From positions 1 to 35,209 of IMG/VR virus record IMGVR_UViG_3300025083_003558: a stretch of 35,209 nucleotides of DNA, one strand, 5' to 3'. The stretch is from a virus. The position numbers and the translations under genes were made by a program. The notes beneath the pieces were generated by a model, which saw only the letters and a program-made list of their open reading frames with translations, searched no databases and was not told the DNA's origin. Numbering within the stretch: position 1 is the first letter of the stretch; every line of letters begins with the position of its first letter. This document shows positions 4,812 through 25,651 of this stretch, piece after piece.

Positions 4812-4839
4812 AGATTAAATACTAATATGGAGAAATCAA
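4812..4839 (-). promoter_or_regulatory. type I promoter for uvsY operon
   Basis: Read leftward: TTGATT (4839-4834), 16 bases, TAATCT (4817-4812), then AAGGT and the uvsY ATG at 4806. The gap between -10 and ATG is 5 bases, so the transcript would be essentially leaderless. It overlaps the late promoter of the divergent gene. Confidence 0.6.
4816..4821 (+). promoter_or_regulatory. late promoter for the 4827 gene
   Basis: TAAATA six bases before the ATG at 4827, matching the T4 late core TATAAATA. It shares two bases with the -10 of the divergent uvsY promoter. Confidence 0.5.
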
Positions 4840-5111
4840 CTAGTAAGTTTGCTAAGTACTTCTACAAAGTTATTGAGGAAGATATGACAGCAGCTGGTGC
4901 AGCAGGTGCTCTTGGTCCTGAAGCTGCTGGTAGTTTTGCTCCAAATGCTTCTACATCTACCGATTCTTATGCTCCAGGTGATGCTAGAGTACCTAAAGCG
5001 CTTGGCAAAGTGCAGAGACGTGCTGATGTTGATCCAAAGAAGAAGAAAAAGAAGAAGAAGAAGGCTAAAAAGACAAAATCCATATTTAGCGGGCAAATTA
5101 AGGAGGCATAA
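4827..5111 (+). CDS. small Ala/Lys-rich protein with candidate capsid-targeting N-terminus
   Basis: 94 residues, not recognised. Three parts are visible: an N-terminal segment (about residues 1-19) with aromatic and basic residues ending in VIEED; an alanine/glycine/serine-rich low-complexity middle; and a very basic C-terminal third containing nine consecutive lysines. The N-terminal segment resembles T4 internal-protein capsid-targeting peptides, which are cut by the gp21 protease after hydrophobic-x-Glu. The basic tail could bind packaged DNA. A TAAATA late promoter sits just upstream. The stop codon overlaps the next start (TAATG). Virion location is inference. Confidence 0.6.
   Translation: MEKSTSKFAKYFYKVIEEDMTAAGAAGALGPEAAGSFAPNASTSTDSYAPGDARVPKALGKVQRRADVDPKKKKKKKKKAKKTKSIFSGQIKEA
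5100..5106 (+). promoter_or_regulatory. strong Shine-Dalgarno for the GIY-YIG gene
   Basis: AAGGAGG four bases before the ATG at 5111, inside the last codons of the preceding gene. It fixes that start, and it stands out because many genes here have no room for such a site. Confidence 0.6.
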
Positions 5112-5536
5112 TGGATTTAGGTCACTGGACATGTGACGAACAATGGGAAGAACTCCCATTCGGCTTCGTATATTTGATTACCAACACGGTAACCGGTATG
5201 AAGTACATTGGAAAGAAGCAAATTGAGAAGAGAACCAAGAGACCTCCACTAAAAGGTAAGAAGCGCAAGAGAATCATTGTAGGAGAGTCGGATTGGAAGA
5301 CATATACTGGGTCTTCTGATAGATTAAACGCAGATATTGCGGAATTAGGTAAGGATAAGTTCAAATTTGAGATAATTTACAGTTGTGGCACTAAAAGTGA
5401 GCTGGCTTACATGGAAACCCTCTACCAATTTCAGTCTGAAGTGTTAATACGTGAGGATTACTACAATGGCATAATGAATTGCCGTATTGGTCGTGTAAAG
5501 TTCACTAAAAAACCACCAAAGTTGTTGCTTTCGTAG
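5111..5536 (+). CDS. GIY-YIG family endonuclease (Seg-like)
   Basis: 141 residues. The GIY-YIG core is visible as GFVYLITN followed by a KYIGKK block around residues 17-36, then a basic stretch, a SDWKTYTGSS segment and a conserved glutamate in AYMETLYQ that would be the catalytic Glu of the family. Proteins of this exact layout occur in many T4-like marine phages and are usually annotated as putative Seg-type homing or repair nucleases. No separate DNA-binding domain is present, so a free-standing homing role is not shown. Start fixed by a strong ribosome binding site. It follows the small late gene at 4827 with a TAATG overlap. Confidence 0.8.
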   Translation: MDLGHWTCDEQWEELPFGFVYLITNTVTGMKYIGKKQIEKRTKRPPLKGKKRKRIIVGESDWKTYTGSSDRLNADIAELGKDKFKFEIIYSCGTKSELAYMETLYQFQSEVLIREDYYNGIMNCRIGRVKFTKKPPKLLLS

Positions 5537-5553
5537 TGAAGGTGAGCTATAAT
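5525..5553 (+). promoter_or_regulatory. sigma70-like promoter for the 5616 gene
   Basis: TTGCTT, 17 bases, TATAAT. The predicted start near 5560 would give a leader of about 55 bases, unlike the near-leaderless promoters elsewhere. The leader holds a C-run and an AAGTATA/TATACTT inverted repeat. Confidence 0.45.
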
Positions 5554-5586
5554 AGTGTAGTTGCCCCCCAAAAGTATACTAAAAAG

Positions 5587-5592
5587 TAAATA
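5587..5592 (+). promoter_or_regulatory. possible late promoter before the 5616 gene
   Basis: TAAATA 23 bases before the ATG at 5616; further from the gene than the other late sites, so less certain. Confidence 0.35.
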
Positions 5593-5615
5593 TACTTATA
5601 CAAACTTCACCTAAA

Positions 5616-6122
5616 ATGTTAGACTCTCCTACAAATCTTAATCAACCTAAGCTTAGGAGCTATTTTGACATAGAGAATAATGTAGAGTACATTAATCTTG
5701 GACCTTATCTTGATGATTCATTTAGATCCTATCAATATTACGTAACTGAGAATGAGTTGCATAATATATCTCAAAAAGAAAAGAATCAATTAGGTACACA
5801 TTTTATTTTAAATCAGATTCTTATTATTTGTCAGATGTCAAAGCGTAAGAAGTGCTTCTATTATGAGTTGAAAGAAGAATATACTATTGAAAAGGTTCTT
5901 ATTGAACGTATTTTTAAGGTACTACCATCTAAGATTATCTATGGTGAGGTTGATTTTGAAGAGTTTATTCAGGAGCAGCGTGAGTTTCAAGCTTATACTC
6001 CCATTGATACTAGTAAGATTTCATGGAAGAAGTTCAAAGAGTTCTTGAAGAAGAACAACCTTACCATGATTGAGAATAAATTTACCAAAGATATTAATGT
6101 AAAGCTGAGCCTTTTGCATTAA
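5616..6122 (+). CDS. hypothetical protein
   Basis: 168 residues, no family recognised. It is rich in aromatic residues and lysine, mildly acidic in the first half and basic in the last third, with no signal peptide or membrane helix. Unlike its neighbours it lacks the capsid-targeting type of N-terminus (it starts MLDSPTNLNQ), and it is preceded by an 80-base gap with its own promoter signals. It may therefore be a regulatory or early protein embedded in the virion-cargo run. The stop codon overlaps the late promoter of the next gene. Confidence 0.7.
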   Translation: MLDSPTNLNQPKLRSYFDIENNVEYINLGPYLDDSFRSYQYYVTENELHNISQKEKNQLGTHFILNQILIICQMSKRKKCFYYELKEEYTIEKVLIERIFKVLPSKIIYGEVDFEEFIQEQREFQAYTPIDTSKISWKKFKEFLKKNNLTMIENKFTKDINVKLSLLH

Positions 6123-6125
6123 ATA
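6120..6125 (+). promoter_or_regulatory. late promoter for the 6131 gene
   Basis: TAAATA whose first three bases are the stop codon of the preceding gene; ATG follows five bases later at 6131. Confidence 0.55.
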
Positions 6126-6130
6126 TTGGT

Positions 6131-6634
6131 ATGTCCAAATTTCTTAGTCTTGTAGAAGAGAACACCCCACTTGATACCTCCGAGGTTGACGAGTTTACCA
6201 AAGAAGGTTTAGAACAGCTTGAAGGGTATATGGCTCAAGTTGAACTTAATCTTGGTTATGCTGGTGAATTACTTGTTGACCTTAATGATCCTATTGTTGA
6301 AAAGAGAGCTGGTGAGCTTGGTGCTAAGATTCAAAAAGATTTGCACAACTTTATGGACAACTTTGGTGGTACATCTGTTGAGGATTCTGAAATAGAAGAA
6401 ATGCCTGCTGAAGATTATGAGTTTACAGATAATGGCCGTCAGAAGAAACTTGATAAATTTAATAAAGCTTCCGGTAACATTACTGGTACATTAGCTGCTG
6501 CAGCAGAATTACGCAGCGCTGATCCAGATCCTAAGAGACCTTCCCGTGGTGTTCAGAAGATTAACAAAGAGGTTGATAAAATGGGTAGGGCAGTTGCCAA
6601 GAACATTGCTCGTGTAACTAAAATGATCAAATAA
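6131..6634 (+). CDS. hypothetical virion-type protein with candidate capsid-targeting N-terminus
   Basis: 167 residues, family not recognised. It begins MSKFLSLVEEN, a short hydrophobic segment ending in L-V-E, the hydrophobic-x-Glu pattern cut by T4-type prohead proteases. The middle is acidic and helical, residues about 85-105 are a very acidic linker, and the last 60 residues are basic with heptad-like spacing (lysine/arginine-rich around KRPSRGVQKINKEVDKMGRA). It has its own late promoter and is followed within two bases by the next gene. Packaging in the head is inference from the leader and the context. Confidence 0.65.
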   Translation: MSKFLSLVEENTPLDTSEVDEFTKEGLEQLEGYMAQVELNLGYAGELLVDLNDPIVEKRAGELGAKIQKDLHNFMDNFGGTSVEDSEIEEMPAEDYEFTDNGRQKKLDKFNKASGNITGTLAAAAELRSADPDPKRPSRGVQKINKEVDKMGRAVAKNIARVTKMIK

Positions 6635-6635
6635 T

Positions 6636-6959
6636 ATGAAAACAGAAAAACTTTTTAAATACTACAATTCCTTTCTTAACGAAAATGTTGAGGGTGGAGA
6701 ACCTGATGCTACAGACGTTGCAGAAATGCCTGCTGATGCAATGGCACCTGATCCATCTGAAATGACATCAGAGGGTGAGAAGGTTATTGTCGAGCTTCTT
6801 GTTCAAGCATTCTTACACGAGCCACCATCTGATGATGCTGCTATTGCTAAAGAGCTTCAAGCTGACATCGAAACAGATCCTAAGGTTGTTATTGCAAAGA
6901 TCAGAAACCTCCTTCAGATGAGTGAAGGGGATATGAAAGAGACACTTGCACAAGCGTAA
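6636..6959 (+). CDS. small acidic protein with candidate capsid-targeting N-terminus
   Basis: 107 residues, not recognised. The first 16 residues are basic and aromatic (MKTEKLFKYYNSF) and end in L-N-E, again a candidate prohead-protease site. The remainder is strongly acidic, with a proline/aspartate-rich linker followed by two predicted helices. It lies two bases after the 6131 gene and just before the type II promoter of the nuclease-like gene. No enzymatic motif is visible. Confidence 0.6.
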   Translation: MKTEKLFKYYNSFLNENVEGGEPDATDVAEMPADAMAPDPSEMTSEGEKVIVELLVQAFLHEPPSDDAAIAKELQADIETDPKVVIAKIRNLLQMSEGDMKETLAQA

Positions 6960-6975
6960 GGAACTCTTATATATT
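6960..6975 (+). promoter_or_regulatory. type II promoter, nuclease-like gene
   Basis: GGAACT, 4 bases, TATATT, followed 7 bases later by the ATG at 6983. The GGAACT begins right behind the previous stop codon. The -10 is the least canonical of the eight copies. Confidence 0.55.
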
Positions 6976-6982
6976 GGTGATT

Positions 6983-8407
6983 ATGAGATTGGAAGATATC
7001 TACAGTAAGCAAATCCTCAATGAAGAGGTTGAAGTCGTATTCACCACAGCTGATGGTAAGAAGGAAACATTCACGTTGGATGACTCTTATGGTAAGGTTG
7101 TAGCAAGACAACTTAGATTGAATCAAGATCCTGGCTTTGATGAAAACATTGTATCTATCTTTACTCAAGGTGATTGGGTAAGTAAAGGTAAGGATCAAAA
7201 GAATGCTAAAAACAAATATAAGGAGATTGTTACTAAGTCTCAATATGATGAAGGTGTGTCTTTAACTGACTACCTTGCTAATAATAAAGAGACACTTCTT
7301 AAGCTTTCAGATTGCCCAGTTGGTAGAGTATTTAACTTTGCTCAAGCCATCGCAAGTAAGCTTCCAAGTGAGCTTGTAAATGAAGACTTGAATGTGTTTA
7401 TTCAGAATGTTCATTTAAATGTTATTCCAAAGGCTTCAACTGGAGTTGGTCTTGGTGAGTCTACCTTTTCAATATTTGGTACTGCTGCAAAAGGTACTAG
7501 TGGTGACCTTCAATGGGATGGTAGTGAGGTAGAGATTAAGACTAATGGACCTAATAAAGGTTCAGGTGCTATCTTAGGTGGTGATGGATACATTAACAAG
7601 ATTACAGATAGACTTGAAGCAAAGTCTGATTATGTTAACCTTAATGCTAACACATACGAGCGTTATAAAGATCAGCTCGTTGAATTAATCAACACTTATA
7701 CTTCACAAGGTAAAGAGCAAGCCCAAGCATTATACAACCAGTTTGTGAAGGGTTCTGATCAGCTTAAAAACATGCTTAAGAATGGTAAGATTACTGCTCT
7801 GCTTGATAATACTAAAGATGTTGAGGAGTTTATGAATACTGTATTGTCTTCCAGCTCCTTCCAACCTCTTAAGAAACAAACTGGCTCAGTTGGAGTTAAT
7901 CCAGATAACCTTCTTCCGAATAGATTACTTGCTCGTATTATGTACGAGATTAAGAAAAGTAGTGAGCTTGAAACTAACTTACCAGGTCAACTAGCTTCAC
8001 TGTTAGGTGCTGATGCTACTGTTGAAGATTATGTTAATGTATTCTCTGAGATGAAGACCTATGCTGATTCATCAGACATTACAGATCAGTTGAATGCATT
8101 CTTCCAGTCAAATAACTTTGCCGATTTTAATCCAAAGACAAATTATAACAACTTCCAACGATTGGTTGGTACAATTGCTATCATTTGCTATCAGGAGAAA
8201 GTTGGTTTTGACTATATTACCTCCGGTAATGATGATAATATGACAATGGCTATATTTGATACTAAGAATCCATCAATTACTAACCTATATAAACAGTTAG
8301 AAGATGTTCCTGAAGTGAGTTTTGACTTAAATATCGATACTTACGAGGGTGGATCATACAGATCACAGACAGTTATTGCTAAATCACCAAGGATCGTGCT
8401 GAAATAA
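6983..8407 (+). CDS. PD-(D/E)XK nuclease-like virion cargo protein
   Basis: 474 residues from the ATG at 6983; upstream TTG and GTG codons are in frame, but they leave no distance from the promoter. The N-terminus MRLEDIYSKQILNEE ends in L-N-E, a candidate prohead-protease site. Around residues 155-190 the sequence reads VGLGES, then GDLQWDG, then EVEIKTNG, giving E159, D175, E184 and K186, the spacing of a PD-(D/E)XK nuclease core (Asp on one strand, ExK on the next). A glycine-rich loop follows (GAILGGDGY). The C-terminal 270 residues are helical and unassigned. Similar proteins occur in T4-like marine phages without assigned function. Nuclease activity is inferred from motif only. Confidence 0.6.
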   Translation: MRLEDIYSKQILNEEVEVVFTTADGKKETFTLDDSYGKVVARQLRLNQDPGFDENIVSIFTQGDWVSKGKDQKNAKNKYKEIVTKSQYDEGVSLTDYLANNKETLLKLSDCPVGRVFNFAQAIASKLPSELVNEDLNVFIQNVHLNVIPKASTGVGLGESTFSIFGTAAKGTSGDLQWDGSEVEIKTNGPNKGSGAILGGDGYINKITDRLEAKSDYVNLNANTYERYKDQLVELINTYTSQGKEQAQALYNQFVKGSDQLKNMLKNGKITALLDNTKDVEEFMNTVLSSSSFQPLKKQTGSVGVNPDNLLPNRLLARIMYEIKKSSELETNLPGQLASLLGADATVEDYVNVFSEMKTYADSSDITDQLNAFFQSNNFADFNPKTNYNNFQRLVGTIAIICYQEKVGFDYITSGNDDNMTMAIFDTKNPSITNLYKQLEDVPEVSFDLNIDTYEGGSYRSQTVIAKSPRIVLK

Positions 8408-8409
8408 AA

Positions 8410-8425
8410 GGAACTCCGTTATAAT
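8410..8425 (+). promoter_or_regulatory. type II promoter, KWDG gene
   Basis: GGAACT, 4 bases, TATAAT; ATG at 8436 after 10 bases. Confidence 0.6.
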
Positions 8426-8435
8426 TAACATAGAA

Positions 8436-9653
8436 ATGAAGAACTTCAAAGAATATTACCAAGCTCGTACATTAATTAACGAGGCTAAAGCAAATACTCA
8501 CCTTACACACCTAGAAGAGCTTGTTCTCACTCAAGGTGAACGTGGATATGGCATTGCTCGTGGTATGGTTGCTGATCTTTTAAGTCATCTTCAAGGTAAA
8601 TCGAAGAGAAAGGTTAATACTTCAGTCAAATGGGACGGTGCTCCTGCTATTTTCTGTGGTAAGCACCCAGAAACAGGCCGCTTCTTCGTTGGAACCAAGT
8701 CAATCTTCAATAATGAACCTAAAATTAACTACACTGATGCAGATGTAGAGATGAATCATGGTCATGCTCCTGGTTTAGCTGATAAACTTAAGAAAGCTCT
8801 AAAGTATCTTCCTAAATTAGGTATCAAAGGTATCCTTCAAGGTGACTTTATGTTTGATTCTTCTTCTTTGAAGCCAATGATGGAAGATGGTAAGAAGCAT
8901 TTGACATTCAAGCCTAATACAATTCGTTACGCTGTTGAGTCTGACTCCGAGTTGGGTAAGGAGATTGGTAACTCTGTCTTTGGAATCGTCTTCCATACTG
9001 GTTATGCTGATCTAAAATCTCCACCTCAATACAATATCTCAGTTAAGAACCTCAAAAAGGTACCTGGTGTATGGGTTGATGATGCTGTCTTTACTGATAC
9101 TACCGGTACTGTTACCCTAGATCTTGATGAAGCTAAGCAAGTTAAAGATATGCTTAAGCTCGCTGACAAGGTTAAGGTTAACTACAAAGGTCTTCCTCTT
9201 GAGTTGCTCAACATTTATGCTAACTCTGAGATTAGAGAGGGTAAGTTCTTAGATGATGCTGAGACTTCATACAAAGGCTTCCTTAATTGGTTCAATGGTC
9301 GTAAGGAGAAGGCTATTGCCAAGCTTAAATCCAAGGCTGGTAAGATTAGATCAAATGAAGCCTACAGTAAGAAGATGGCTGAGATCAAAGCTGAAGAGCA
9401 GAACATCATTGCAGTGTTCAAAGTAAGTAAGTTGCTTGCTCAAGCTAAACAAATTTTCGTTAACAAGTATAACAACGCAGTATATAACACCAAGCACTTC
9501 TTAGATAGTGGTGATGGTACTCTTAAAGCTACTGCACCAGAAGGTTATGTAGCAGTATCAAGAGCGGGTGATGCAGTTAAGCTTGTTGACCGTTTGGAAT
9601 TCAGCCGCGCTAACTTCAGTGATGGTCAAACCTCAACACCAATCACTAAGTAA
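8436..9653 (+). CDS. ligase/nucleotidyltransferase-like protein with KxDG motif, candidate virion cargo
   Basis: 405 residues. The N-terminus MKNFKEYYQARTLINEA matches the T4 internal-protein leader in style and ends in I-N-E|A, the classic gp21 cut. At residues 65-68 a KWDG sequence, followed by AIFCG and FFVGTKS, looks like motif I (KxDG) of ATP-dependent DNA/RNA ligases and capping enzymes. LQGDFMF at 134-140 could be motif III and TFKPNTIRYAV part of the next strand. This family is widespread in T4-like marine phages, where I recall it as a domain of unknown function (DUF6267, from memory). The C-terminal 150 residues are lysine-rich and helical. Ligase-fold membership is inference. The stop overlaps the next ATG (TAATG). 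Confidence 0.62.
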   Translation: MKNFKEYYQARTLINEAKANTHLTHLEELVLTQGERGYGIARGMVADLLSHLQGKSKRKVNTSVKWDGAPAIFCGKHPETGRFFVGTKSIFNNEPKINYTDADVEMNHGHAPGLADKLKKALKYLPKLGIKGILQGDFMFDSSSLKPMMEDGKKHLTFKPNTIRYAVESDSELGKEIGNSVFGIVFHTGYADLKSPPQYNISVKNLKKVPGVWVDDAVFTDTTGTVTLDLDEAKQVKDMLKLADKVKVNYKGLPLELLNIYANSEIREGKFLDDAETSYKGFLNWFNGRKEKAIAKLKSKAGKIRSNEAYSKKMAEIKAEEQNIIAVFKVSKLLAQAKQIFVNKYNNAVYNTKHFLDSGDGTLKATAPEGYVAVSRAGDAVKLVDRLEFSRANFSDGQTSTPITK

Positions 9654-10195
9654 TGAAAACATTCAAAGAGTATTTCGAGAATCAAGAAGACACAGAAGCA
9701 GTAGCTCTTATGCCTGGTGGTTATAAGCCACCTACAAAGGGTCACTTCGGCGCTTTTAAATATATGCTCGAGGATGCTACAAGTGGTCTTATCGTAATTG
9801 GTAACAAGGATCGTGACGGTATTACAGCTGAGCAATCAAAAGCTATCTGGGAGATCTATGCCAAGTATATGGGTAAGCCAGTTGAAGTTGAGCTTGCTCC
9901 TATCTCTCCTGTTAAGTCAGTATATGACTATGCAGATGCTAATACAGAGAAGAAGATCATTGTAGGTGCTGGTGCCAAAGATGAAGATGTAAAGCGTTAT
10001 GCTTACTTTGAGAAGAATCCTGAGAAGTATCCATTTGTTCAAGTGATTAAGATACCTATTCAAGAGGATGGTATCTCAGGAACTAAGACAAGAGCCCTTA
10101 TTGCTTCTGACTTAGATAAGGCTATAGAATACTTTGTACCTAATGAGCTTTCAGAATCTGATAAAGATGCTGTAAAAGCAGTGCTCCAGGCATAA
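9653..10195 (+). CDS. TxGH-type nucleotidyltransferase, candidate virion cargo
   Basis: 180 residues. Opens with MKTFKEYFEN, the leader style of this cluster, although a clean hydrophobic-x-Glu cut site is not obvious. The body is a HIGH-superfamily nucleotidyltransferase: PPTKGHF at residues 26-32 gives the TxGH nucleotide-binding motif and ISGTKTR at 141-147 matches the ISxTxxR signature. These two motifs define NMN/pantetheine/glycerol-phosphate-type cytidylyl- and adenylyltransferases. The substrate cannot be told; NMN adenylyltransferase-like NAD metabolism is one option. Similar proteins occur in T4-like marine phages. It overlaps the preceding stop and is followed by a late promoter. 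Confidence 0.75.
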   Translation: MKTFKEYFENQEDTEAVALMPGGYKPPTKGHFGAFKYMLEDATSGLIVIGNKDRDGITAEQSKAIWEIYAKYMGKPVEVELAPISPVKSVYDYADANTEKKIIVGAGAKDEDVKRYAYFEKNPEKYPFVQVIKIPIQEDGISGTKTRALIASDLDKAIEYFVPNELSESDKDAVKAVLQA

Positions 10196-10198
10196 ATA
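10193..10198 (+). promoter_or_regulatory. late promoter for the glycine-zipper gene
   Basis: TAAATA (extended CATAAATA) overlapping the preceding stop codon; ATG five bases on, at 10204. Closest match here to the T4 late consensus. Confidence 0.6.
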
Positions 10199-10203
10199 TA
10201 TGC

Positions 10204-11115
10204 ATGAAGTCCAAACAGAACGATGCTGAGCTTATTGCTGAGGCTTATACAAATGTAGAGCCGCTTGAGGTTCAAGAAGAGATGCTTGGTGCGATCGCAG
10301 CAGGTGCAGGAGCCGCTGCTAGAGGAGCTGGTGCCGCAGCAAGGGGTGTTGGTAAAGCACTTACAAGTGAGCCAGCTAAGAAGATTTATAAAGGTGCTGG
10401 TAAAGTTGTTAAGAAGACAGCTGAGACAGCAGGTGGTGCTGCTCTCGGTGCTCTTGGTGGAGCCGCTGAAGGTGCTGCTAAGGCTGTTGGTGGGGTTGTT
10501 CAAGGTGCTGTAGAAGGTACAGTTGGTGCTGTACAAGGCGCTATTGATGGTGCTACTGGTGGTATTGGTAAAGCTGCTAAGGGTGCAGTTGGTATGGAAG
10601 ATGGTGAGCATGAAGGTGAAGATGCACCAATGAAAAATGTTACTAAGCGTAAGTTAAGCAGTGAGGAAATTCAGGCAAAGCTTGGTAAGGCACCTACTGA
10701 AGATGCAGAGATTGTAAGTGATACAGATGGTGCCGAACACGATGCTCCAGTCGAAGTTGACATGTCACAAAACCCAGATCCAGAAAGCTTGGAAGTATCT
10801 AAAGAGGTTGAAGAGCCAGCTGCATTAGCAATCGTTGCTCCTTCTATTCAACCTTCTATTGAAGGTGAGCGTGTTAATCACGAAGACGACTCTGAAGTTA
10901 AGATGGCTCTTGCTGAACTTTATAAGATTGAAAAGTATGCATACGCTCTCGGTCTTATGATGAAGGAAACAAAAGCACTTGAAGGTTGGACTGCTGCTAA
11001 AATTACAAAGGCTGCTGACTACCTTGGTTCTGTTTTCCATAAACTCGATTATGACTTCCACGCTGATGCAGAAGATCACTCTGACATCACTCCTGAAGAT
11101 CACGAAGGTCATTAA
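10204..11115 (+). CDS. glycine-zipper/Ala-rich candidate virion protein
   Basis: 303 residues, function unknown. The first 16 residues, MKSKQNDAELIAEAYT, contain L-I-A-E|A, almost the same cut site as the FIAEA of T4 internal proteins. Residues 30-130 are extremely rich in glycine and alanine in GxxxG and AxxxG repeats (glycine zipper), interspersed with lysine, a composition that can insert in or associate with membranes. Residues 130-220 are an acidic low-complexity linker. The last 80 residues are a compact helical region with a histidine/aspartate-rich tail. It has its own late promoter and is followed at once by the protease-like gene. A role in membrane crossing during DNA ejection is possible but untested. 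Confidence 0.65.
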   Translation: MKSKQNDAELIAEAYTNVEPLEVQEEMLGAIAAGAGAAARGAGAAARGVGKALTSEPAKKIYKGAGKVVKKTAETAGGAALGALGGAAEGAAKAVGGVVQGAVEGTVGAVQGAIDGATGGIGKAAKGAVGMEDGEHEGEDAPMKNVTKRKLSSEEIQAKLGKAPTEDAEIVSDTDGAEHDAPVEVDMSQNPDPESLEVSKEVEEPAALAIVAPSIQPSIEGERVNHEDDSEVKMALAELYKIEKYAYALGLMMKETKALEGWTAAKITKAADYLGSVFHKLDYDFHADAEDHSDITPEDHEGH

Positions 11116-11116
11116 T

Positions 11117-11560
11117 ATGAAAACATTTCTACAGTACATTGAAGAGAAGTCTGTTCTTGGACTTATTGAATTCTTCAACATTGAAGGCATTGGTAAAGTT
11201 GCTGCTAAATTGGACAGCGGTAATGGAGCTTACAATGTTATTCATGGTGAAGACATCCAAGAGCAAGGTGATAAAGTTTTCTTCCGTACTGTAAATGGTC
11301 GTACACTAGTCGTACCAAAGGTAGATGAGATCTCAATTAACGTAGGTGCTGGCAACATTGAGCACCGTCCTGTTATTGAACTTGACTTTACTATTGGTGA
11401 AAAGGAATATACAGGCATTAAGTTCTCTATTGGTAACAGATCATCAAATTTGTACAAGATACTTGTTGGTAAGGACTTCATTCAACAAGATCTTGATGCA
11501 CTTATCGATGTTAGCCAAGAGAACATTGCTGATAAAAACGTTGAAGCGGAAGTAAAATGA
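11117..11560 (+). CDS. retropepsin-like aspartic protease (RimB/PF05618-type), candidate virion cargo
   Basis: 147 residues from the ATG at 11117, one base after the previous stop; the longer open frame upstream overlaps the previous gene and is not used. Leader MKTFLQYIEEKS ends in Y-I-E-E. The body shows AKLDSGNGAYNVIHG at residues 30-44, the D(S/T)G active site with the following helix-cap seen in the ATP-dependent zinc protease/RimB family, then a RPVIELDF strand and an NRSSNLYKILVGKDFI segment corresponding to the conserved lxxR...LiGR region. As a single-domain retropepsin it would work as a dimer. It could trim virion or host proteins. Ends inside the start of the next gene (ATGA overlap). 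Confidence 0.68.
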   Translation: MKTFLQYIEEKSVLGLIEFFNIEGIGKVAAKLDSGNGAYNVIHGEDIQEQGDKVFFRTVNGRTLVVPKVDEISINVGAGNIEHRPVIELDFTIGEKEYTGIKFSIGNRSSNLYKILVGKDFIQQDLDALIDVSQENIADKNVEAEVK

Positions 11561-12291
11561 AATCATTTAAGTTATTTTTTGAAAGTCAGTTTTATAATGA
11601 CACTTTGCACCCAGCTTTTTGGGATGCAGCTAAGAACTTTGACCAAGACTTGAGAGAAAAGCTTCTTACCATTGCACAAGATGTATCTGAAGGTGCAGGA
11701 GTTAAGACTGATATCATTGATGACATTCAGTTAACTGGTTCAATGGCCAATTACAACTATACTGACTTCTCTGACCTTGATGTTCACATTCTTCTAGACT
11801 TTGCAAAGATCAATCATGATGAAGATCTTGTAAAGAAGGCATTAGATGGTAAAAGATTTGTTTGGAATCTTAGACATGACATTAAGATGGGTGGTCATGA
11901 TGTTGAAGTTTACTTCCAAGACACAGAAGAGCCTCATAAAGCATCTGGTCTCTATAGTATTCTTAATAATGAGTGGATCAGAGAGCCAGAACATAATGAG
12001 CCTGAGGTAGATGAGAGAGATGTTGCTGCTAAAGCTGATAGACTTAAGGGTGAGATTGCTGATCTTGAAGTAGCTCTACAAACAACCCCTGTTGAAGAGC
12101 TTGATGACCTTGCTGAAGCAGCTGATGCACTTCGAGCTAAGGTTGCTAAGATGAGAAAAGACTCTCTTGAAGCTAATGGTGAGTTTGGTATTGGTAATCT
12201 CGCTTTCAAAGAACTTCGTAACAGTGAATACATGGGACGTCTTATTGATGTTGCCAATGCAATTTACGATAAAAAGTTCACCTCTGAGTAA
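11557..12291 (+). CDS. pol-beta-type nucleotidyltransferase, candidate virion cargo
   Basis: 244 residues. Starts MKSFKLFFESQ, like the neighbouring leaders. The catalytic signature of the DNA-polymerase-beta nucleotidyltransferase superfamily is clear: GS at 61-62, FSDLDVHIL giving Asp73 and Asp75, and a third acidic strand HDVEVYF (Glu117). Residues 155-205 are a charged coiled coil. The family includes CCA-adding enzymes, MNT-type AMP-transferases and cGAS-like synthases; the short size and lack of other domains do not allow a choice. It is the last gene of the cargo run; about 250 bases follow before queD. Confidence 0.72.
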   Translation: MKSFKLFFESQFYNDTLHPAFWDAAKNFDQDLREKLLTIAQDVSEGAGVKTDIIDDIQLTGSMANYNYTDFSDLDVHILLDFAKINHDEDLVKKALDGKRFVWNLRHDIKMGGHDVEVYFQDTEEPHKASGLYSILNNEWIREPEHNEPEVDERDVAAKADRLKGEIADLEVALQTTPVEELDDLAEAADALRAKVAKMRKDSLEANGEFGIGNLAFKELRNSEYMGRLIDVANAIYDKKFTSE

Positions 12292-12543: not shown

Positions 12544-13290
12544 ATGAAGTTTACAAGCAATAAAGTAATTAACTTAGGTTCAGCTGCATTCCGTCAGTGG
12601 AGAAGTACTCATAGTCATTGTCAGTATATTCACGGCTATAACCTTACAGCTGATATTACATTTGAGGCTGATGAGCTTGATGAACGTAACTGGGTAGCAG
12701 ACTTTGGTGGTCTCAAAGATCTTAAGAAGACTTTGGAACATACATTTGATCATAAGTTAGTTGTTGCTGCAGATGACCCTCAGCTTGATCTCCTTAAGCA
12801 GCTTGATGAAGCAGGAGTAGCTCAAGTTGTAGTACTTCAAGCTGGTGTAGGGTGTGAGAGGTTTGCTGAGTTTGTTCTTAAAACTGCTGATACTTTCATT
12901 GATGAAGCTACTGATGGTCGTGTAAGAGTTAAGTCTGTTCAAATTAATGAGCATGATAAGAACTTTGCTACTTGTCATCGTGCTGACTATGCTCTTGAAG
13001 CTCTTATAAAAGCTTCGAAGAGTGAAGATGCTCTTGAAGTAACCATTACACAAAGTGAAACTAAACCATCAGAGATTGAAGCATTTGAAACTGGTGAGAA
13101 TCGTATCAATGTCATTGGCAAGAATGGTAATGATGGTGAGCATTATGATAAAGAAGGTCTTCAAGATGTTCATGGACCTATTGCTACTGAAGCAAAGGAA
13201 GAATTTAAAGGGTCCGCAGATCAAGCAGCTCCTGTTAAGCCATCTACTAAGACTAAAGGTGGTTGGTTTGAAGGTACTACTTGGGGCTAA
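12544..13290 (+). CDS. queD: QueD-like 6-carboxytetrahydropterin synthase
   Basis: Second step of 7-deazaguanine synthesis: dihydroneopterin triphosphate to 6-carboxy-5,6,7,8-tetrahydropterin. Residues 1-160 carry the 6-pyruvoyl-tetrahydropterin synthase fold: SAAFRQW, SHCQYIHGYN with the catalytic cysteine, VADFGGLK, FDHKLVV, and a late CHRADYALE. It belongs to the variant with AFRQW and HGY in place of the usual AAH and HGH, so the zinc ligands are not the textbook three histidines. Residues about 165-248 are an added acidic, low-complexity tail absent from ordinary QueD (about 120 residues). queE and folE2 lie 4-6 kb downstream with the same promoter type, supporting a shared pathway. Confidence 0.85.
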   Translation: MKFTSNKVINLGSAAFRQWRSTHSHCQYIHGYNLTADITFEADELDERNWVADFGGLKDLKKTLEHTFDHKLVVAADDPQLDLLKQLDEAGVAQVVVLQAGVGCERFAEFVLKTADTFIDEATDGRVRVKSVQINEHDKNFATCHRADYALEALIKASKSEDALEVTITQSETKPSEIEAFETGENRINVIGKNGNDGEHYDKEGLQDVHGPIATEAKEEFKGSADQAAPVKPSTKTKGGWFEGTTWG

Positions 13291-13293
13291 ATA
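13288..13293 (+). promoter_or_regulatory. possible late promoter before the 13318 gene
   Basis: TAAATA overlapping the queD stop codon; the ATG lies 24 bases downstream, so a true leader is possible here. Confidence 0.4.
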
Positions 13294-13317
13294 AAAAATC
13301 TAACATAAAATAAAAAA

Positions 13318-13614
13318 ATGGCTAGCACAAAACTAAAAAGAGCTTATATCAAGCTTGTTAAAAACAAAAAGGCTCGCACAAACTCCTCGAAGCAGTATTT
13401 TCAAGTATTTGCTGAAGGTGGCGAAGCATATCTATTCACAACAACCGATATGGAGAAGGCTGCTAAGAGAGCAGATAAGAATCCAGAGGATGTTTATCCG
13501 GTTCGCTTTGAAGAACCAGAACCAGAGATTGTTGTTAAAGAAGTAATCAAATATGTTGAGGTTAAAGCACCAGGCCTCTTCAAGCGTATTTGGAAAAAAC
13601 TTACTGGTAAATAA
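13318..13614 (+). CDS. small basic hypothetical protein
   Basis: 98 residues, not recognised. The first third is lysine-rich; the middle (about residues 22-60) looks like a small mixed alpha/beta unit (YFQVFAEGGEAYLFTT then DMEKAAKRADKNPEDVYPV), followed by a proline/glutamate stretch, a valine-rich strand and a basic amphipathic C-terminus ending KRIWKKLTGK. The preceding 27 bases are nearly all A and T with a late-type TAAATA. It is followed by an inverted repeat and the tRNA gene. Confidence 0.6.
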   Translation: MASTKLKRAYIKLVKNKKARTNSSKQYFQVFAEGGEAYLFTTTDMEKAAKRADKNPEDVYPVRFEEPEPEIVVKEVIKYVEVKAPGLFKRIWKKLTGK

Positions 13615-13618
13615 TTTC

Positions 13619-13677
13619 ATCTATCTGTCTTGTTGTTTTTGTTGTGTTGTTTGTTGTAAACAATTAGACAGATAGAT
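13619..13677 (+). repeat. 12-bp perfect inverted repeat with GT-rich loop upstream of tRNA
   Basis: ATCTATCTGTCT (13619-13630) and its exact complement (13666-13677) enclose 35 bases made almost only of G and T on this strand. The right arm ends three bases before the tRNA. It could be a stem-loop of the precursor transcript, a terminator-like element or a recombination site. Confidence 0.65.
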
Positions 13678-13680
13678 AAC

Positions 13681-13755
13681 GCCTCCTTAGCTCAGTGGTA
13701 GAGCAGCTGATTTGTAATCAGCAGGTCGTCAGTTCGAATCTGACAGGAGGCTCCA
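13681..13755 (+). tRNA. tRNA-Thr (anticodon UGU), CCA encoded
   Basis: A full cloverleaf can be drawn: acceptor GCCTCCT pairs with AGGAGGC, the D arm carries AGCTCAGTGGTAGAGC, the anticodon arm GCTGA-TTTGTAA-TCAGC has TGT at 13713-13715, and the T arm has GTTCGAATC. The discriminator base is T, and the 3' CCA is encoded at 13753-13755. It reads ACA codons. There is no visible intron. It lies between two hairpins, in a short non-coding block of about 215 bases. Confidence 0.95.
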
Positions 13756-13759
13756 TTTT

Positions 13760-13793
13760 AAACCCTTACGTAGCCCCAGATGCGTGAGGGTTT
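13760..13793 (+). terminator. terminator-like hairpin after the tRNA
   Basis: Eleven-pair stem AAACCCTTACG/CGTGAGGGTTT with one G-U pair and a 12-base loop, followed by a pyrimidine-rich but not pure T tract. It probably ends the tRNA transcript. Confidence 0.6.
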
Positions 13794-13808
13794 CCTGTCT
13801 TCTCATAA

Positions 13809-13824
13809 GGAACTCTCATATAAT
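13809..13824 (+). promoter_or_regulatory. type II promoter, 13830 gene
   Basis: GGAACT, 4 bases, TATAAT, then TAAGT and the ATG at 13830. Confidence 0.65.
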
Positions 13825-13829
13825 TAAGT

Positions 13830-14135
13830 ATGACTTACAAGAAAGCTGAGAAAATACCATGGCTTGATAGGAATAAGCTTAAAGCTGACATTCAAAGCCT
13901 TGCAGAAGAGATTAGATCAGGTGAAGAAGATGTTATGGAGGATTATGAGCATGCTGTTCAGCAATTTGCTGATATAACTCGTAGTCAAGCACCAGCATCT
14001 GTAACGGATCCCGTTGCTTGGGATGAATTTTGTGAGGATTGGGGTGGAGATCCAGGTGAAACCATACAATATGGTGGAAAAAGACCGATGAATTACCTAG
14101 AAATGGTTAAATGGCGACGCGGATACTGGAGATAG
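13830..14135 (+). CDS. hypothetical acidic protein
   Basis: 101 residues, no family recognised. The N-terminal half is predicted helical and charged; the C-terminal half is rich in tryptophan and aspartate (VAWDEFCEDWGGDPG, then MVKWRRGYWR at the end). No metal-binding or nucleotide-binding motif is visible. It has its own type II promoter with only five bases between the -10 and the ATG, and is followed by another type II promoter, so it is a single-gene unit. Confidence 0.6.
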   Translation: MTYKKAEKIPWLDRNKLKADIQSLAEEIRSGEEDVMEDYEHAVQQFADITRSQAPASVTDPVAWDEFCEDWGGDPGETIQYGGKRPMNYLEMVKWRRGYWR

Positions 14136-14140
14136 TAAAA

Positions 14141-14156
14141 GGAACTCTGTTATAAT
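14141..14156 (+). promoter_or_regulatory. type II promoter, DUF932 gene
   Basis: GGAACT, 4 bases, TATAAT; ATG at 14179. The only type II copy with a sizeable leader (about 15 bases), which holds a purine-rich possible ribosome binding site. Confidence 0.62.
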
Positions 14157-14178
14157 TAAAGAGAAGAAAGACAATATT

Positions 14179-15009
14179 ATGGGATTCATTACAGAAATTA
14201 GCTCACTAGAAGAAATCGACGCATTTAAAGTTGAAAAGGAACCAGTATTTTTCAACGACAATGTTCGAGTACCGGATACATTCTCACTCCGTCGAGTAGA
14301 TGATGGTCGCCATCTTGGTATCGTTGGTAAGAACTACCGACCTATTCAAATGGAAGAAATGATTGATGTTCTTGATAAGGCATCTAATCGAGTTGGAGAT
14401 ATTGAGCACGTTGGTTATACTACATCACGTGGAGGTCGTAAAGTCCTCATTCAATCCAAGTTGGCTGAAGATATTAACATTGAAGGAGATGTTATTGAGC
14501 CATATTTCTATACCGTTATCGATAATACCGGTATGGGATCAAACAAGACCTGTCCATCTACTAAGAGGATTTCTTGTGACAATGCTTTTCATTTGATTAG
14601 AGACGAGTCGACTGCACTAACAAGTCGTCATGCAAGTAACTTTGATGATCGTGTTAACTTAACCATTGATAGCATTGTTGGTTCTATCCGGTCTGCTCGT
14701 AGGTTCAGTGAGACAGTTGTTGATCTCAAGAGTCAAAAGTTTAGTCGTGATCAAATGGTTAAGCTTACTGAGACTCTCCTCCCAGTTAATGAGGATGAAT
14801 CTACAAAGCGTGTGCTTAAGCGTGAGAAACTTGTAGAGTTGTATGAGAGTGGTCTCGGTAATGCAGGTGAAACTAAGTGGGATGCACTTAATGCCCTTAC
14901 TGAGTATGAGTCTCACAATGGAAGGCAGAGTTCTTCTAAGCTTATTCGCAATCTTGTTACTGGAGGTAATCAGCTGTCACAAAGAGGCTTGAAGCTGCTT
15001 GCCGCGTAA
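14179..15009 (+). CDS. DUF932 family protein
   Basis: 276 residues matching the DUF932 phage/plasmid protein family, seen in the early LGIVGKNYRPIQ block, the central PYFYTVIDNTGMGSNKT and KRISCDNAFHL region, and the C-terminal KWDALNALTEYESHN motif that is typical of the family. The biochemical role of DUF932 is not established; members are frequent in phages, plasmids and cyanobacteria and often sit near DNA-processing or anti-restriction genes. No transmembrane segment or signal. It is transcribed from its own type II promoter. Confidence 0.8.
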   Translation: MGFITEISSLEEIDAFKVEKEPVFFNDNVRVPDTFSLRRVDDGRHLGIVGKNYRPIQMEEMIDVLDKASNRVGDIEHVGYTTSRGGRKVLIQSKLAEDINIEGDVIEPYFYTVIDNTGMGSNKTCPSTKRISCDNAFHLIRDESTALTSRHASNFDDRVNLTIDSIVGSIRSARRFSETVVDLKSQKFSRDQMVKLTETLLPVNEDESTKRVLKREKLVELYESGLGNAGETKWDALNALTEYESHNGRQSSSKLIRNLVTGGNQLSQRGLKLLAA

Positions 15010-15010
15010 A

Positions 15011-15026
15011 GGAACTACGTTATAAT
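15011..15026 (+). promoter_or_regulatory. type II promoter, 15033 gene
   Basis: GGAACT, 4 bases, TATAAT, then exactly six bases to the ATG at 15033, which puts the predicted +1 on the A of the start codon. Confidence 0.66.
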
Positions 15027-15032
15027 TTAGGT

Positions 15033-15590
15033 ATGAATATTTTTACAACTAACGATTGCCCCGTTATCTCTGCTCAAGAGATGTGTGATAAACATGTAGT
15101 CAAGATGATTGTTGAGTATGCTCAGCTAATGTCAACTGCTCATCGTGTTCTTGACGGTGAGCAGTATGAAGGTCGTACTAAAGCTAATCGTCGTATTAGG
15201 CGTTGGCTGCACCCAGATAAGAATATGGAAGAGGTTCTTTACAAAGCTTCTCATATCAACCACCCTTCTGGTCTATGGTGTCGCACCACTACTGCTAACT
15301 ATGAGTGGTTGTATAAGCATTTCTTGGCATCATGTAAAGAATATACTCTTCGTTATGGAAAGGTTCATGCTACTGAGACTAAGCTAGCTGAAGTATTCAA
15401 AACTCCGCCTAAGAACCTTCCCAAAGGTAAGCAGACAGAGTTTGCTGTAGCTATTGCTGCTAATCAGACATGTAGAAAGCTTCCTGGTTTCAATAAGCTA
15501 TCTGTTGTAGATAAGTACAAGCAATATATTCGTTGCGATAAGCCTTTTGCTAAATGGACTAAAAGAGATAAGCCTAGTTGGATTTACTAG
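15033..15590 (+). CDS. conserved phage protein of unknown function
   Basis: 185 residues. It matches a family I recognise from many phages, with the opening pattern of a short strand, two prolines/serines and then CDKHVVKMIVEYAQLMSTAHRVLDG (positions about 18-42, quoted here only by its start CDKHVVKM), followed by HINHPSGLWCRTT, NYEWLYKHF and a RYGKVH block. The conserved His/Cys/Trp positions suggest an enzyme, but the activity is unknown to me; some databases place such proteins near pyrimidine-dimer glycosylases, which I cannot confirm. Single-gene unit with a type II promoter. Confidence 0.7.
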   Translation: MNIFTTNDCPVISAQEMCDKHVVKMIVEYAQLMSTAHRVLDGEQYEGRTKANRRIRRWLHPDKNMEEVLYKASHINHPSGLWCRTTTANYEWLYKHFLASCKEYTLRYGKVHATETKLAEVFKTPPKNLPKGKQTEFAVAIAANQTCRKLPGFNKLSVVDKYKQYIRCDKPFAKWTKRDKPSWIY

Positions 15591-15618
15591 TTGATTTAAC
15601 ATTTTAATATACTAATAT
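15591..15618 (+). promoter_or_regulatory. type I promoter for the 15628 gene
   Basis: TTGATT directly after the preceding stop codon, 16 bases, TAATAT; ATG at 15628 after 9 bases. Confidence 0.55.
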
Positions 15619-15627
15619 ACCTTTGCG

Positions 15628-15846
15628 ATGATATCGAAATTAATTACATTGATCACTTTGATCTTTGGACCAGCAACAAACGCACCACCTCTTGGTAGTT
15701 ATGATGTACCACCTGCTACGTCAGGTAAAGGAGCTAAAGCAGTAATTCCAAAAGAGATTACTCCTAACCCTCTTGACTACCCACCAGGAATTGATCCTCC
15801 TTACTACCCACCAGTACCAACACCTCCACGTATTACAGAACTTTAA
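15628..15846 (+). CDS. small proline-rich protein, possibly exported
   Basis: 72 residues, not recognised. The first 14 residues (MISKLITLITLIFG) are hydrophobic after one lysine, which could be a short signal or anchor. The rest is strongly proline-rich, with YPP, DPPYYPP and PTPP runs, and unlikely to fold as a globular domain. It lies immediately upstream of the PEP-CTERM gene, 54 bases apart, and could be a partner in the same surface function. It has a type I promoter. Confidence 0.55.
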   Translation: MISKLITLITLIFGPATNAPPLGSYDVPPATSGKGAKAVIPKEITPNPLDYPPGIDPPYYPPVPTPPRITEL

Positions 15847-15900
15847 ACAATTTTCGGCCCCTGACGAAGACACAAACCAAAAAACAAAAACAAACAAAAA
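15847..15900 (+). promoter_or_regulatory. A/C-rich leader of the PEP-CTERM gene
   Basis: 54 bases with a GC-rich start (around CGGCCCCTGACG) and a final 30 bases of almost only A and C up to the ATG. No Shine-Dalgarno. This composition differs from every other gene start in the window and resembles untranslated leaders I associate with Verrucomicrobiota genes. Confidence 0.4.
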
Positions 15901-16548
15901 ATGAAAGTATTAAAACTACTACTAGCCGGCGCTCTTGCAGCGATTTCCTTCAACGTTCTAAATGCAGCAACTGTTCTCGTCCTTGACCAGCCGCATGTAA
16001 CCTCTGACCCATCTTATGAGATGACTCTTACATTTGAAGAGACTACTCGTGCAAATGAAGTTAAGGTAACATTCAAAGCTGTTAACGTTGGTTCCCATTA
16101 TGTTGATGGTGTTGCTCTTAACCTTCCAGAAGGAATTAACTACCAGCCAATTCAACTTGGTGGTGTTACTGCTGAAGAAGGTTTCTTCCAAGCACCTAAC
16201 ATGCTTAAGCAAAGGGACAACCTCATTGGACCTAATCAAGGTAATCAAGGCATCTTCGATATCGGAGCTGGATTTGCTACCGGTCGTAACAAGCCATCTA
16301 ATGTGCTCTTCACTACTGGTGACTCTGTTTCATTCCTCGTAACCAGCACACAAGGACCTCTTAGTGTAGAAGATCTTGCTGAGACATTCGATACTCCAAC
16401 TGATACTTGGGTCGCAGCTGCATCAGTTGTTACTGCTCCTGGATATTGTGCTTGGTACACCACTGATGGTGGTTCACCAGTTCCTGAGCCTTCATCTGCT
16501 CTCCTCGGACTACTTGGACTTGGGGCACTTGCTCGTCGTAAGCGATAA
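15901..16548 (+). CDS. secreted PEP-CTERM (exosortase-sorted) protein
   Basis: 215 residues. An N-terminal signal peptide (about residues 1-23: two lysines, a leucine/alanine core, LNAA cleavage region) leads to a beta-rich domain of about 165 residues with no recognised family. The last 23 residues are a textbook PEP-CTERM sorting signal: V-PEP-SS at about 194-199, a leucine/glycine hydrophobic stretch (ALLGLLGLGAL), and a terminal ARRKR. Such proteins are exported and then processed by a host exosortase in Gram-negative biofilm-forming bacteria; the form PEPSSALLGLLGLGAL is frequent in Verrucomicrobiota. No exosortase is in the window. The gene has its own A/C-rich leader and a strong terminator, as expected of a cassette taken from a host. 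Confidence 0.88.
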   Translation: MKVLKLLLAGALAAISFNVLNAATVLVLDQPHVTSDPSYEMTLTFEETTRANEVKVTFKAVNVGSHYVDGVALNLPEGINYQPIQLGGVTAEEGFFQAPNMLKQRDNLIGPNQGNQGIFDIGAGFATGRNKPSNVLFTTGDSVSFLVTSTQGPLSVEDLAETFDTPTDTWVAAASVVTAPGYCAWYTTDGGSPVPEPSSALLGLLGLGALARRKR

Positions 16549-16570
16549 TAATAAATAACAATAAACGAAA

Positions 16571-16602
16571 AGAGCCGCTACAATTGTAGCGGCTCTCTTT
16601 TT
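16571..16602. terminator. strong bidirectional terminator
   Basis: A perfect 26-base palindrome (16571-16596, arms AGAGCCGCTACAA and complement) followed by CTTTTT on the plus strand and preceded by an A-rich tract that serves the minus strand. It lies between the convergent PEP-CTERM gene and phoH. Its GC-rich stem contrasts with the AT-rich surroundings. Confidence 0.9.
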
Positions 16603-16610
16603 GTTTAAAT

Positions 16611-17336
16611 CTAACCGAGTCTCTCGCAGATGTATCTTAAGATCTTACTACGAACAATCTCTGAGTTACCAAACTTGAATGTGTAGATACCTTTATCCTC
16701 ACATTCATGGCTATCAAATCTATCAAAGACGTTTTTAAAACCTGATTGCTTAACATCAGATTGCTTTCCATCACCAAGTACAATGTACTTACTATTACGA
16801 CCAAAGCGTGTAAGGATGGTTGTTAGCTCCCCCTTAGTAAGGTTCTGAGCTTCATCAACAATAACGCATGTATTGTTAAATGTAAGACCACGTACAAAGT
16901 TAACAGGTATAGCGTCAATCAATCCTTTAGACTTAAGCATACCACATGTACCTGGACCACATAGCTCAGTTACCTTCTCAATAAGAGGCATCATATATGG
17001 GGAGAATTTATCATCAATCTCACCTGGAAGGGAACCTAAGCTCTTGTCTGCCGACTCAACTACTGATCGGATATAAACAATCTTCTCAACATCCTCGCTT
17101 TTTAGCATTTCAAGAGCGGCATATACAGCAATATATGTCTTAGCAGTTCCAGCAAGACCATCTACAAAAGTCATTTGAGTTGTTGCCTCATGAATTGTTT
17201 CATAGAAGTCACGATGTTTTGGTTTCATATAGAAAGGCTTTCTAATTTTGAAATCCATTAACCATCCTCCATTAAAGATATCTTCACCGATTTCCGGGTC
17301 AATATCCACAGCTTGTTTCTTAGAACGTCTGCTCAT
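16611..17336 (-). CDS. phoH: PhoH-like P-loop ATPase
   Basis: 241 residues. PhoH-family ATPase, common in marine phages, where it is often listed as a phosphate-starvation auxiliary gene although its biochemical job is unclear (an RNA-helicase or nuclease-accessory role is discussed). Walker A GLAGTAKT at residues 60-67 and Walker B VIVDEAQN about 100 residues later, with a downstream LGDGKQSD block, match the family. Only the ATPase domain is present, with no PIN or KH domain. It is convergent with the PEP-CTERM gene and divergent from queE. Confidence 0.92.
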   Translation of the reverse strand: MSRRSKKQAVDIDPEIGEDIFNGGWLMDFKIRKPFYMKPKHRDFYETIHEATTQMTFVDGLAGTAKTYIAVYAALEMLKSEDVEKIVYIRSVVESADKSLGSLPGEIDDKFSPYMMPLIEKVTELCGPGTCGMLKSKGLIDAIPVNFVRGLTFNNTCVIVDEAQNLTKGELTTILTRFGRNSKYIVLGDGKQSDVKQSGFKNVFDRFDSHECEDKGIYTFKFGNSEIVRSKILRYICERLG

Positions 17337-17373
17337 CTATTAATACTTAGTCAACTTGATCGTGTAACCAAGC

Positions 17374-17393
17374 AACTATAAGTGACTATAGTT
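17374..17393. repeat. short inverted repeat in phoH-queE divergent region
   Basis: AACTATA, six bases, TATAGTT, midway between the two divergent genes. It could be an operator acting on both, but 7-base arms in AT-rich DNA may arise by chance. Confidence 0.35.
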
Positions 17394-17405
17394 TGCAGAT
17401 ATCAG

Positions 17406-17433
17406 TTGAATCTACAGAATACTAGGTTATAAT
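17406..17433 (+). promoter_or_regulatory. type I promoter for queE
   Basis: TTGAAT, 16 bases, TATAAT; ATG at 17443 after 9 bases. Confidence 0.68.
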
Positions 17434-17442
17434 ATAGTTGAA

Positions 17443-18201: not shown

Positions 18202-18212
18202 TAACTAATAAG

Positions 18213-18240
18213 TTGATAAACAAATTAAACACTTTATAAT
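18213..18240 (+). promoter_or_regulatory. type I promoter for folE2
   Basis: TTGATA, 16 bases, TATAAT; ATG at 18249 after 8 bases. Confidence 0.7.
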
Positions 18241-18248
18241 ATAGTTGT

Positions 18249-24590: not shown

Positions 24591-24596
24591 AATATT

Positions 24597-25621: not shown

Positions 25622-25630
25622 TTTTCATAA

Positions 25631-25646: not shown

Positions 25647-25651
25647 TAGGT

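Follow-up and report, generated by a model that had tools for sequence, protein, structure and literature searches.

The window analysed here is an entire 35.2-kb viral record (IMGVR_UViG_3300025083_003558; 35,209 nucleotides, nt), a fragment of a T4-like phage related to Kyanoviridae. A run of eleven plus-strand genes in this window (4827-12291) is best explained as a cassette of cargo genes that a T4-like marine phage expresses late, with T4-type capsid-targeting sequences attached to enzymes. We assign this interpretation a probability of roughly 0.84. We identified N-terminal leaders with fixed positions, exchange of these leaders between protein bodies, and late-promoter cores; the prohead protease gp21 is encoded in relatives, and related proteins have been reported from virions. 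The window proteins themselves would be targeted, packaged, cleaved by gp21 and injected. A preliminary description of this DNA had proposed T4-type targeting leaders on enzymes, and position-specific conservation, leader and body exchange, gp21 in relatives and virion homologs support this.

Leaders in the gene run

The genes of the run are as follows (leader coordinates in brackets).

4827-5111, plus strand: leader MEKSTSKFAKYFYKVIEE (4827-4880), copy of the gp23 N-terminal arm, lysine-rich tail
5111-5536, plus strand: SegE-type GIY-YIG endonuclease, leaderless, outside the cargo (PF19835, E=5e-32)
5616-6122, plus strand: unknown protein, leaderless, no family match
6131-6634, plus strand: leader MSKFLSLVEE (6131-6160), then variable body; strict T4-type pattern; leader on other bodies in relatives
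6636-6959, plus strand: possible leader MKTEKLFKYYNSFLNE (6636-6683), then small acidic body; leader-like start in 16 diverged orthologs, plausible only
6983-8407, plus strand: possible leader MRLEDIYSKQILNE (6983-7024), then 460-residue body; five close orthologs aligned; PD-(D/E)xK-like motif by eye
8436-9653, plus strand: leader MKNFKEYYQARTLINE (8436-8483), then DUF6267 (PF19782, E=1e-94); ligase-like, invariant KxDG
9653-10195, plus strand: leader MKTFKEYFE (9653-9679), then NMNAT/cytidylyltransferase-like enzyme; motifs GYKPPTKGH and ISGTKTR; weak profiles
10204-11115, plus strand: leader MKSKQNDAELIAE (10204-10242), glycine/alanine-rich variable middle, conserved C-terminal part
11117-11560, plus strand: leader MKTFLQYIEE (11117-11146), then retropepsin-like PF05618-type domain; strict T4-type pattern
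11557-12291, plus strand: leader MKSFKLFFE (11557-11583), then Pol-beta-type nucleotidyltransferase; GS..DxD motif, weak Pfam support

Nine open reading frames (ORFs; 4827, 6131, 6636, 6983, 8436, 9653, 10204, 11117 and 11557) had been described as having leader-like N-termini, and their starts and N-termini were confirmed (9/9). SegE (5111) and 5616 have no leader. In 7/11 products the leader has 10-18 residues and ends in hydrophobic-x-Glu, as previously listed: VIEE (4827), LVEE (6131), FLNE (6636), ILNE (6983), LINEA (8436), LIAEA (10204) and YIEE (11117). The ends of the other two are YFE|N (9653) and FFE|S (11557), so that a hydrophobic-x-Glu site can be counted in all nine. The K-x-F aromatic pattern proper is found in 8436, 9653, 11117 and 11557, and an S-K-F variant in 6131. 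The initial count of up to nine leaders in eleven products is therefore generous; a strict count gives five, because 4827, 6636, 6983 and 10204 have other sequence before the Glu. As targeting sequences, those of 6636, 6983 and 10204 are no more than plausible.

The T4 leaders, read from its genome, are MKTYQEFIAEA (both IPII and IPIII, matching the reference peptide of the preliminary description) and MKTFKEFTSTTTPVSTITEA (IPI); gp22 starts MLKEQLIAEA. In the IPIII leader, residues 4 and 7 govern targeting and residues 8 and 10 govern processing (T4 review, PMC9026906). Aromatics at both 4 and 7 are present in 8436, 9653, 11117 and 11557, while 6131 has F4 and L7. Both T4 formats occur in the window, the short one in 11117 (MKTFLQYIEE|K) and 6131 (MSKFLSLVEE|N), and the long, IPI-like one in 8436 (MKNFKEYYQARTLINE|A).

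Aromatics at 4 and 7 occur in 4/11 run products vs 0.9% of background (P=2e-6), and a stricter T4-like pattern (aromatic 4, hydrophobic 7 and 8, Glu 10) in 2/11 vs 0.08% (P=3e-5); the positions are those of the published mutagenesis, and the residue classes were picked after the leaders had been seen. One or other pattern is present in 5/11 products of the run vs 0/33 of the remaining window genes (P=4e-4). The strict pattern was found in 60/622 predicted genes of 47 related loci (non-independent matches, as orthologs recur) and in 0/839 genes of 80 loci that surround the portal gene in related phages. Among 636 annotated proteins of Melnitz, HTVC008M and S-SM1 it occurs twice, in S-SM1_190 and in Melnitz 12203, which adjoins DUF6267. 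In Melnitz, the homologous cluster is enriched in leader-like starts (5/23 vs 1/193 elsewhere, P=5e-5), and so is that of HTVC008M (3/22 vs 1/176 elsewhere, P=0.004). No leader has a long hydrophobic stretch, so they were not taken for signal peptides or membrane anchors.

Conservation and exchange of leaders

The leader of DUF6267 orthologs (8436) drifts in sequence (e.g., MKNFKEYYQARTLINEA, MISFKKYFITHGLLTEA, MRSFKQFHLDSQLLTEA, MKPFKQYYNTIRLIEEQ), while F4 and an aromatic at 7 are present in 20/20 distinct leaders and L13 and E16 in 19/20. The 11117 family has F4, Y/F7, I/F8 and E10 in 10/10 distinct leaders, and position 9 is free. The cleavage residues P3 and P1 are fixed in relatives and P2 is free; the P1 Glu is kept in 8436, 9653, 11117 and 11557. 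Alignment across related phages, proposed earlier as a check, thus gave constant F4, aromatic 7 and P3/P1 amid drift of the rest.

The leader is independent of the body: it is shared among bodies, and bodies occur with and without it. In relatives, MSKFLxLxEENTP precedes several different bodies and MKSKxNDAxLIAEAY precedes exchangeable middles. Three loci (L110, L112, L113) encode a leaderless 11557 body, the start of which coincides with that of the predicted mature protein. Close relatives encode further leader proteins at the same place, including a cytidylyltransferase (MKSFKEYFTEG) and a DUF4112-like protein (MKKFKEYYTEG).

For a wider test, viral contigs were scanned for DNA encoding only MKTFKE[F/Y], leaving positions 8-10 out of the query. 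At least 112 proteins in at least 53 unrelated body families were recovered. Among the matches listed, 26/53 families have a hydrophobic residue at 8 and Glu at 10 vs 5% of background N-termini (P=4e-20). Also among the matches listed, 7/8 contigs longer than 50 kb match the gp21 family PF03420 (6 above the cut-off), which is only consistent with the tag idea, as no matched control contigs were set alongside. On a 104-kb contig (L243:2357-3910), four neighbouring genes start MKTFKEYLEE or MKTFKEYIRE and have unrelated bodies, one of them HAD-phosphatase-like. Another contig encodes, behind MKTFKEFIKES, a PolyVal-type ADP-ribosyltransferase (L277:6037-6813; PF18760, E=1e-23) that may correspond to packaged T4 Alt.

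We hold, at slightly better than even odds, a broader view: T4-type tags would be a general, exchangeable packaging code of marine T4-like phages by which virions are loaded with dozens of protein families, including many enzymes, and a lineage-matched copy of the gp23 arm on a basic protein would make a shell-anchored, DNA-binding head component.

Related proteins in published virions

T4-GC190, a putative cytidylyltransferase, was detected in S-SM1 virions (Sullivan et al. 2010, PMC3037559). According to three further reports, NMNAT/cytidylyltransferase proteins are present in virions of S-SCSM1 (PMC9602691), S-CREM2 (3 peptides; PMC10665884) and S-SZBM1 (2 peptides; PMC9146016). The S-SM1 protein starts MKKFSAFLNEA, and in its relatives among the loci compared MK[KS]FSAFL[NTSI]EA is kept; the NMNAT-like genes of the other three start MKSFLQFLKEA (S-SCSM1), MKNFSSFLTEA (S-CREM2) and MRFRQFIIEA (S-SZBM1). 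The predicted T4-type leader on the NMNAT-like proteins of all four cyanophage virions is decisive support for the cargo interpretation. The S-SZBM1 DUF6267, the NMNAT neighbour, is leaderless and is absent from the virion detection table as accessible (PMC9146016). S-CREM2 virions also contain S-CREM2_156 (6 peptides; PMC10665884), a homolog of window 11557 (E=5e-36).

The leader goes unmentioned in the accessible text of the virion NMNAT papers. In the searchable literature, capsid targeting and cyanophages are named together only in one T4 review; the link between published virion proteomics and the leaders is new here. RTFKEFLEYIE, which resembles a targeting motif, forms the C-terminus of one further virion protein, S-SCSM1_93 (L346:31627-31836).

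A copy of the gp23 arm

From the cleavage-site region IEE|D through DxYAPxDARxPK, the 4827 product can be aligned to gp23, the major capsid protein, of a related phage (score 101, z=18); a lysine-rich tail takes the place of the capsid domain. Small basic proteins resembling it occur in several Kyanoviridae (L344, L056, L050, L049), and the gp23 arm of the same phage is the best or equal-best match: S-CREM2_160 (z=16), S-SM1 GC426 (z=9, tied with the S-CREM2 arm), Melnitz 22687 (z=5) and, weakly, HTVC008M 115347 (z=2.5). One member of the family (L328) has the leader MKTFKEFVMQE. S-CREM2_160, the equivalent of 4827, was found in virions (7 peptides; PMC10665884). The 4827 protein is probably a DNA- or shell-binding head protein, whose mature arm would be recognised by a site in the head and whose basic tail would contact DNA.

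Late-promoter cores

TAAATA is the core of the T4 late promoter. Comparison of the upstream regions of orthologs identified it before three leader genes and before gp20:

4816-4821, plus strand: TAAATA core, 5 nt before the 4827 ATG; 26/26 orthologs, spacing 5 nt in 25
6120-6125, plus strand: TAAATA core, 5 nt before the 6131 ATG; 7/7 orthologs
10193-10198, plus strand: TAAATA core, 5 nt before the 10204 ATG; 28/30 orthologs, always 5 nt
33551-33556, plus strand: TAAATA core before gp20, for comparison; 28/28 related gp20 genes, spacing 6-7 nt

Upstream of queD and segE the core is missing or rare (0/23 and 1/33). In three cases its TAA doubles as the stop codon of the upstream gene, yet conservation extends to the ATA that follows and to the spacing. 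The signal is visible only in such ortholog comparisons; scanning the whole window for either CTAAATA or TATAAATA showed no excess over chance. No TAAATA was found within 40 nt upstream of gp22 and gp23, and therefore the core marks only some late genes. Because it lies so close to the ATG, the late mRNAs of the three cargo families and of gp20 may be nearly leaderless.

Proposed mechanism and known systems

The aromatics at leader positions 4 and 7 would dock each protein on the prohead core, gp21 would cut after hydrophobic-x-Glu, and the enzyme would be freed inside the head; these steps are proposed because of the T4 precedent. The freed enzyme would then enter the host together with the DNA, as we infer from the T4 internal proteins and Alt. 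Bodies are swapped and leaders retained. After injection, both T4 IPI and Alt work in the host, IPI in counter-defence. At a guess, the most likely role of the window enzymes would be early takeover or counter-defence via NAD or nucleotide chemistry.

The window shares with T4 IPI, IPII and IPIII an N-terminal leader of 10-19 residues, aromatics at 4 and 7 and the hydrophobic-x-Glu end, as well as late genes, unrelated bodies after similar leaders and a gp21-type protease in the lineage. Unlike the small basic T4 internal proteins, the window bodies are enzyme-like (NMNAT-like, Pol-beta-type, retropepsin-like, DUF6267), several leader genes are clustered in one run, and cleavage and packaging are predicted. 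T4 Alt, too, is a head-packaged enzyme that gp21 processes, but no Alt homolog was seen in the run. The virion NMNAT of cyanophages (T4-GC190; S-SM1, S-SCSM1, S-CREM2, S-SZBM1) shares the enzyme type, the DUF6267 neighbour and the leader, and window 9653 is a distant, shorter relative of it (two-sequence BLAST E=0.005; S-SCSM1_91 E=0.001). With the gp23 N-terminal arm, 4827 shares the propeptide cleavage-site region and the mature arm; the lysine-rich tail and missing capsid domain set it apart.

Evidence against and alternative explanations

Several observations weigh against packaging by leader. Four of the nine leaders (4827, 6636, 6983 and 10204) depart from the T4 pattern in that they lack aromatics at both 4 and 7, and leader enrichment in S-SM1 alone is not significant (P=0.19). 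The virion protein S-CREM2_156 has no clear aromatic leader and cyanophage DUF6267 is entirely leaderless; thus, the tag is neither universal nor strictly required. The NMNAT peptides are few, and two of the proteomics papers cannot exclude carry-over (PMC10665884, PMC9602691). A trimmed N-terminus is reported in none of the virion proteomics papers as far as these are accessible, and the virion evidence comes solely from phages not closely related to this one.

The alternative that survives best, which we judge to have about one chance in four, is that the leader proteins are core or scaffold parts that aid head assembly, with enzyme folds used in assembly or inert, and without injection. This would suit the mimicry of gp23 by 4827, the lack of a recognisable enzyme domain in 6131, 6636 and 10204, and the part that T4 IPIII plays in head form (PMC9026906). 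However, the NMNAT-like and nucleotidyltransferase motifs are conserved, and a leader-bearing PolyVal-type ADP-ribosyltransferase exists (L277). T4 IPI and Alt, moreover, do their work in the host.

It is improbable that the leaders serve to dock the proteins on some other partner, such as a late assembly factor, membrane or replication complex, with the Glu kept for docking rather than cleavage. Cleavage in these phages is indeed a prediction, but the leader positions correspond individually to the T4 residues for targeting and processing, IEE|D of 4827 is the gp23 cleavage-site region, and related leader proteins are found in virions. Slightly less probable still, the NMNAT-like and other proteins of virion preparations could be lysate contaminants, with leaders unrelated to packaging. 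Carry-over is raised by the authors of two proteomics papers; against it, four independent preparations are positive, abundant replication proteins are mostly not among the proteins listed, and all four detected proteins bear a T4-type leader. Chance or composition, with acidic proteins of AT-rich genomes merely happening to start M-K-x-F, is excluded at the level tested: MK starts are common, and 8/77 background proteins starting MK have hydrophobic-8 and Glu-10, but the pattern statistics, the confinement to the run within the window, the fixed positions amid drift and the 53-family test all speak against it.

The preliminary description was in essence correct: a known kind of tag is here placed on enzymes, and its reach is wider than first claimed. 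T4-like marine myoviruses are among the most abundant ocean viruses, and most of their genes are of unknown role. A readable packaging tag would yield candidate early effectors from sequence alone, much as signal peptides point to secreted proteins. Whether virion NMNAT is cargo or carry-over is debated in cyanophage proteomics, and for this question, too, the tag offers a mechanism. If packaging holds, the leaders suggest that this large group of ocean viruses ships ready-made enzymes into hosts.

Individual genes of the run

We identified PF19782 (DUF6267) over positions 1-373 of 376 of the profile in 8436 (318 bits vs a cut-off of 27), with relatives in 451 phage records, mainly of cyanophages, and 47 environmental viral contigs. 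K65, D67 and G68 (KxDG) are invariant in the family. In the structure model, residues 1-21 have low confidence and the leader lies outside the folded part. Fold matches are led by DNA/RNA ligases and capping enzymes (best E=0.4, non-significant), and a profile search of PDB with DUF6267 gave no match. The ligase named earlier is suggested by KxDG and, short of significance, by the fold matches; 8436 as a ligase or covalent nucleotidyltransferase is unproven.

Profiles for 9653 are weak (PHROG E=0.001-0.002; PDB NMNAT E=0.08). In two related loci (L039:2932-4863, L040:3240-5270), DUF6267 and the NMNAT-like enzyme are apparently one fused ORF with a single leader; therefore, the two may act together.

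The protease proposed for 11117 corresponds to a weak match to PF05618 (retropepsin-like "ATP-dependent zinc protease"; E=9e-6, 26.1 bits, cut-off 27), which is family-wide, in 10/10 members, and is accompanied by a match to PDB 9g58 (E=7.5e-7). In 11557 the GS-x(n)-DxD motif is invariant in the family and PF01909 matches below the cut-off (E=0.02). Its profile weakly touches the nucleotidyltransferase part of DrrA/SidM (E=0.009), which supports a Pol-beta-type fold only.

Relatives of 10204 keep the leader and C-terminal part and differ in the middle; LIAEA is as in T4 gp22. The nuclease suggested for 6983 found no backing beyond the motif seen by eye: there was no profile match, and the structure model (AlphaFold, five similar sequences) has a confidence of 40. 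A nuclease function is unproven.

Genomic context

No near relative of the window was found in the named phage collection. On the minus strand before 4806 are UvsY/UvsW/gp55/gp47-like genes, named by resemblance; the plus-strand run comes next. The record stops at the portal gene:

33564-35207, plus strand: gp20 portal; frame still open at the end of the record, ahead of gp21

Genes downstream of gp20 in relatives are gp4-like, gp21, gp22 and gp23, and gp21 (PF03420) shares a contig (G012) with a relative of the run. The proposed search for gp21 downstream of gp20 thus succeeds in relatives, while the window stops before that gene.

Two further groups of genes were named by resemblance. The queD-, queE- and queF-like genes at 12544-19289 suggest 7-deazaguanine chemistry. 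A block of glycosyltransferase and nucleotide-sugar genes (21417-29241) lies between replication and head genes. The protein encoded at 15901-16548 has a PEP-CTERM-like end (VPEPSSALLGLLGLGALARRKR), which is unusual for a phage.

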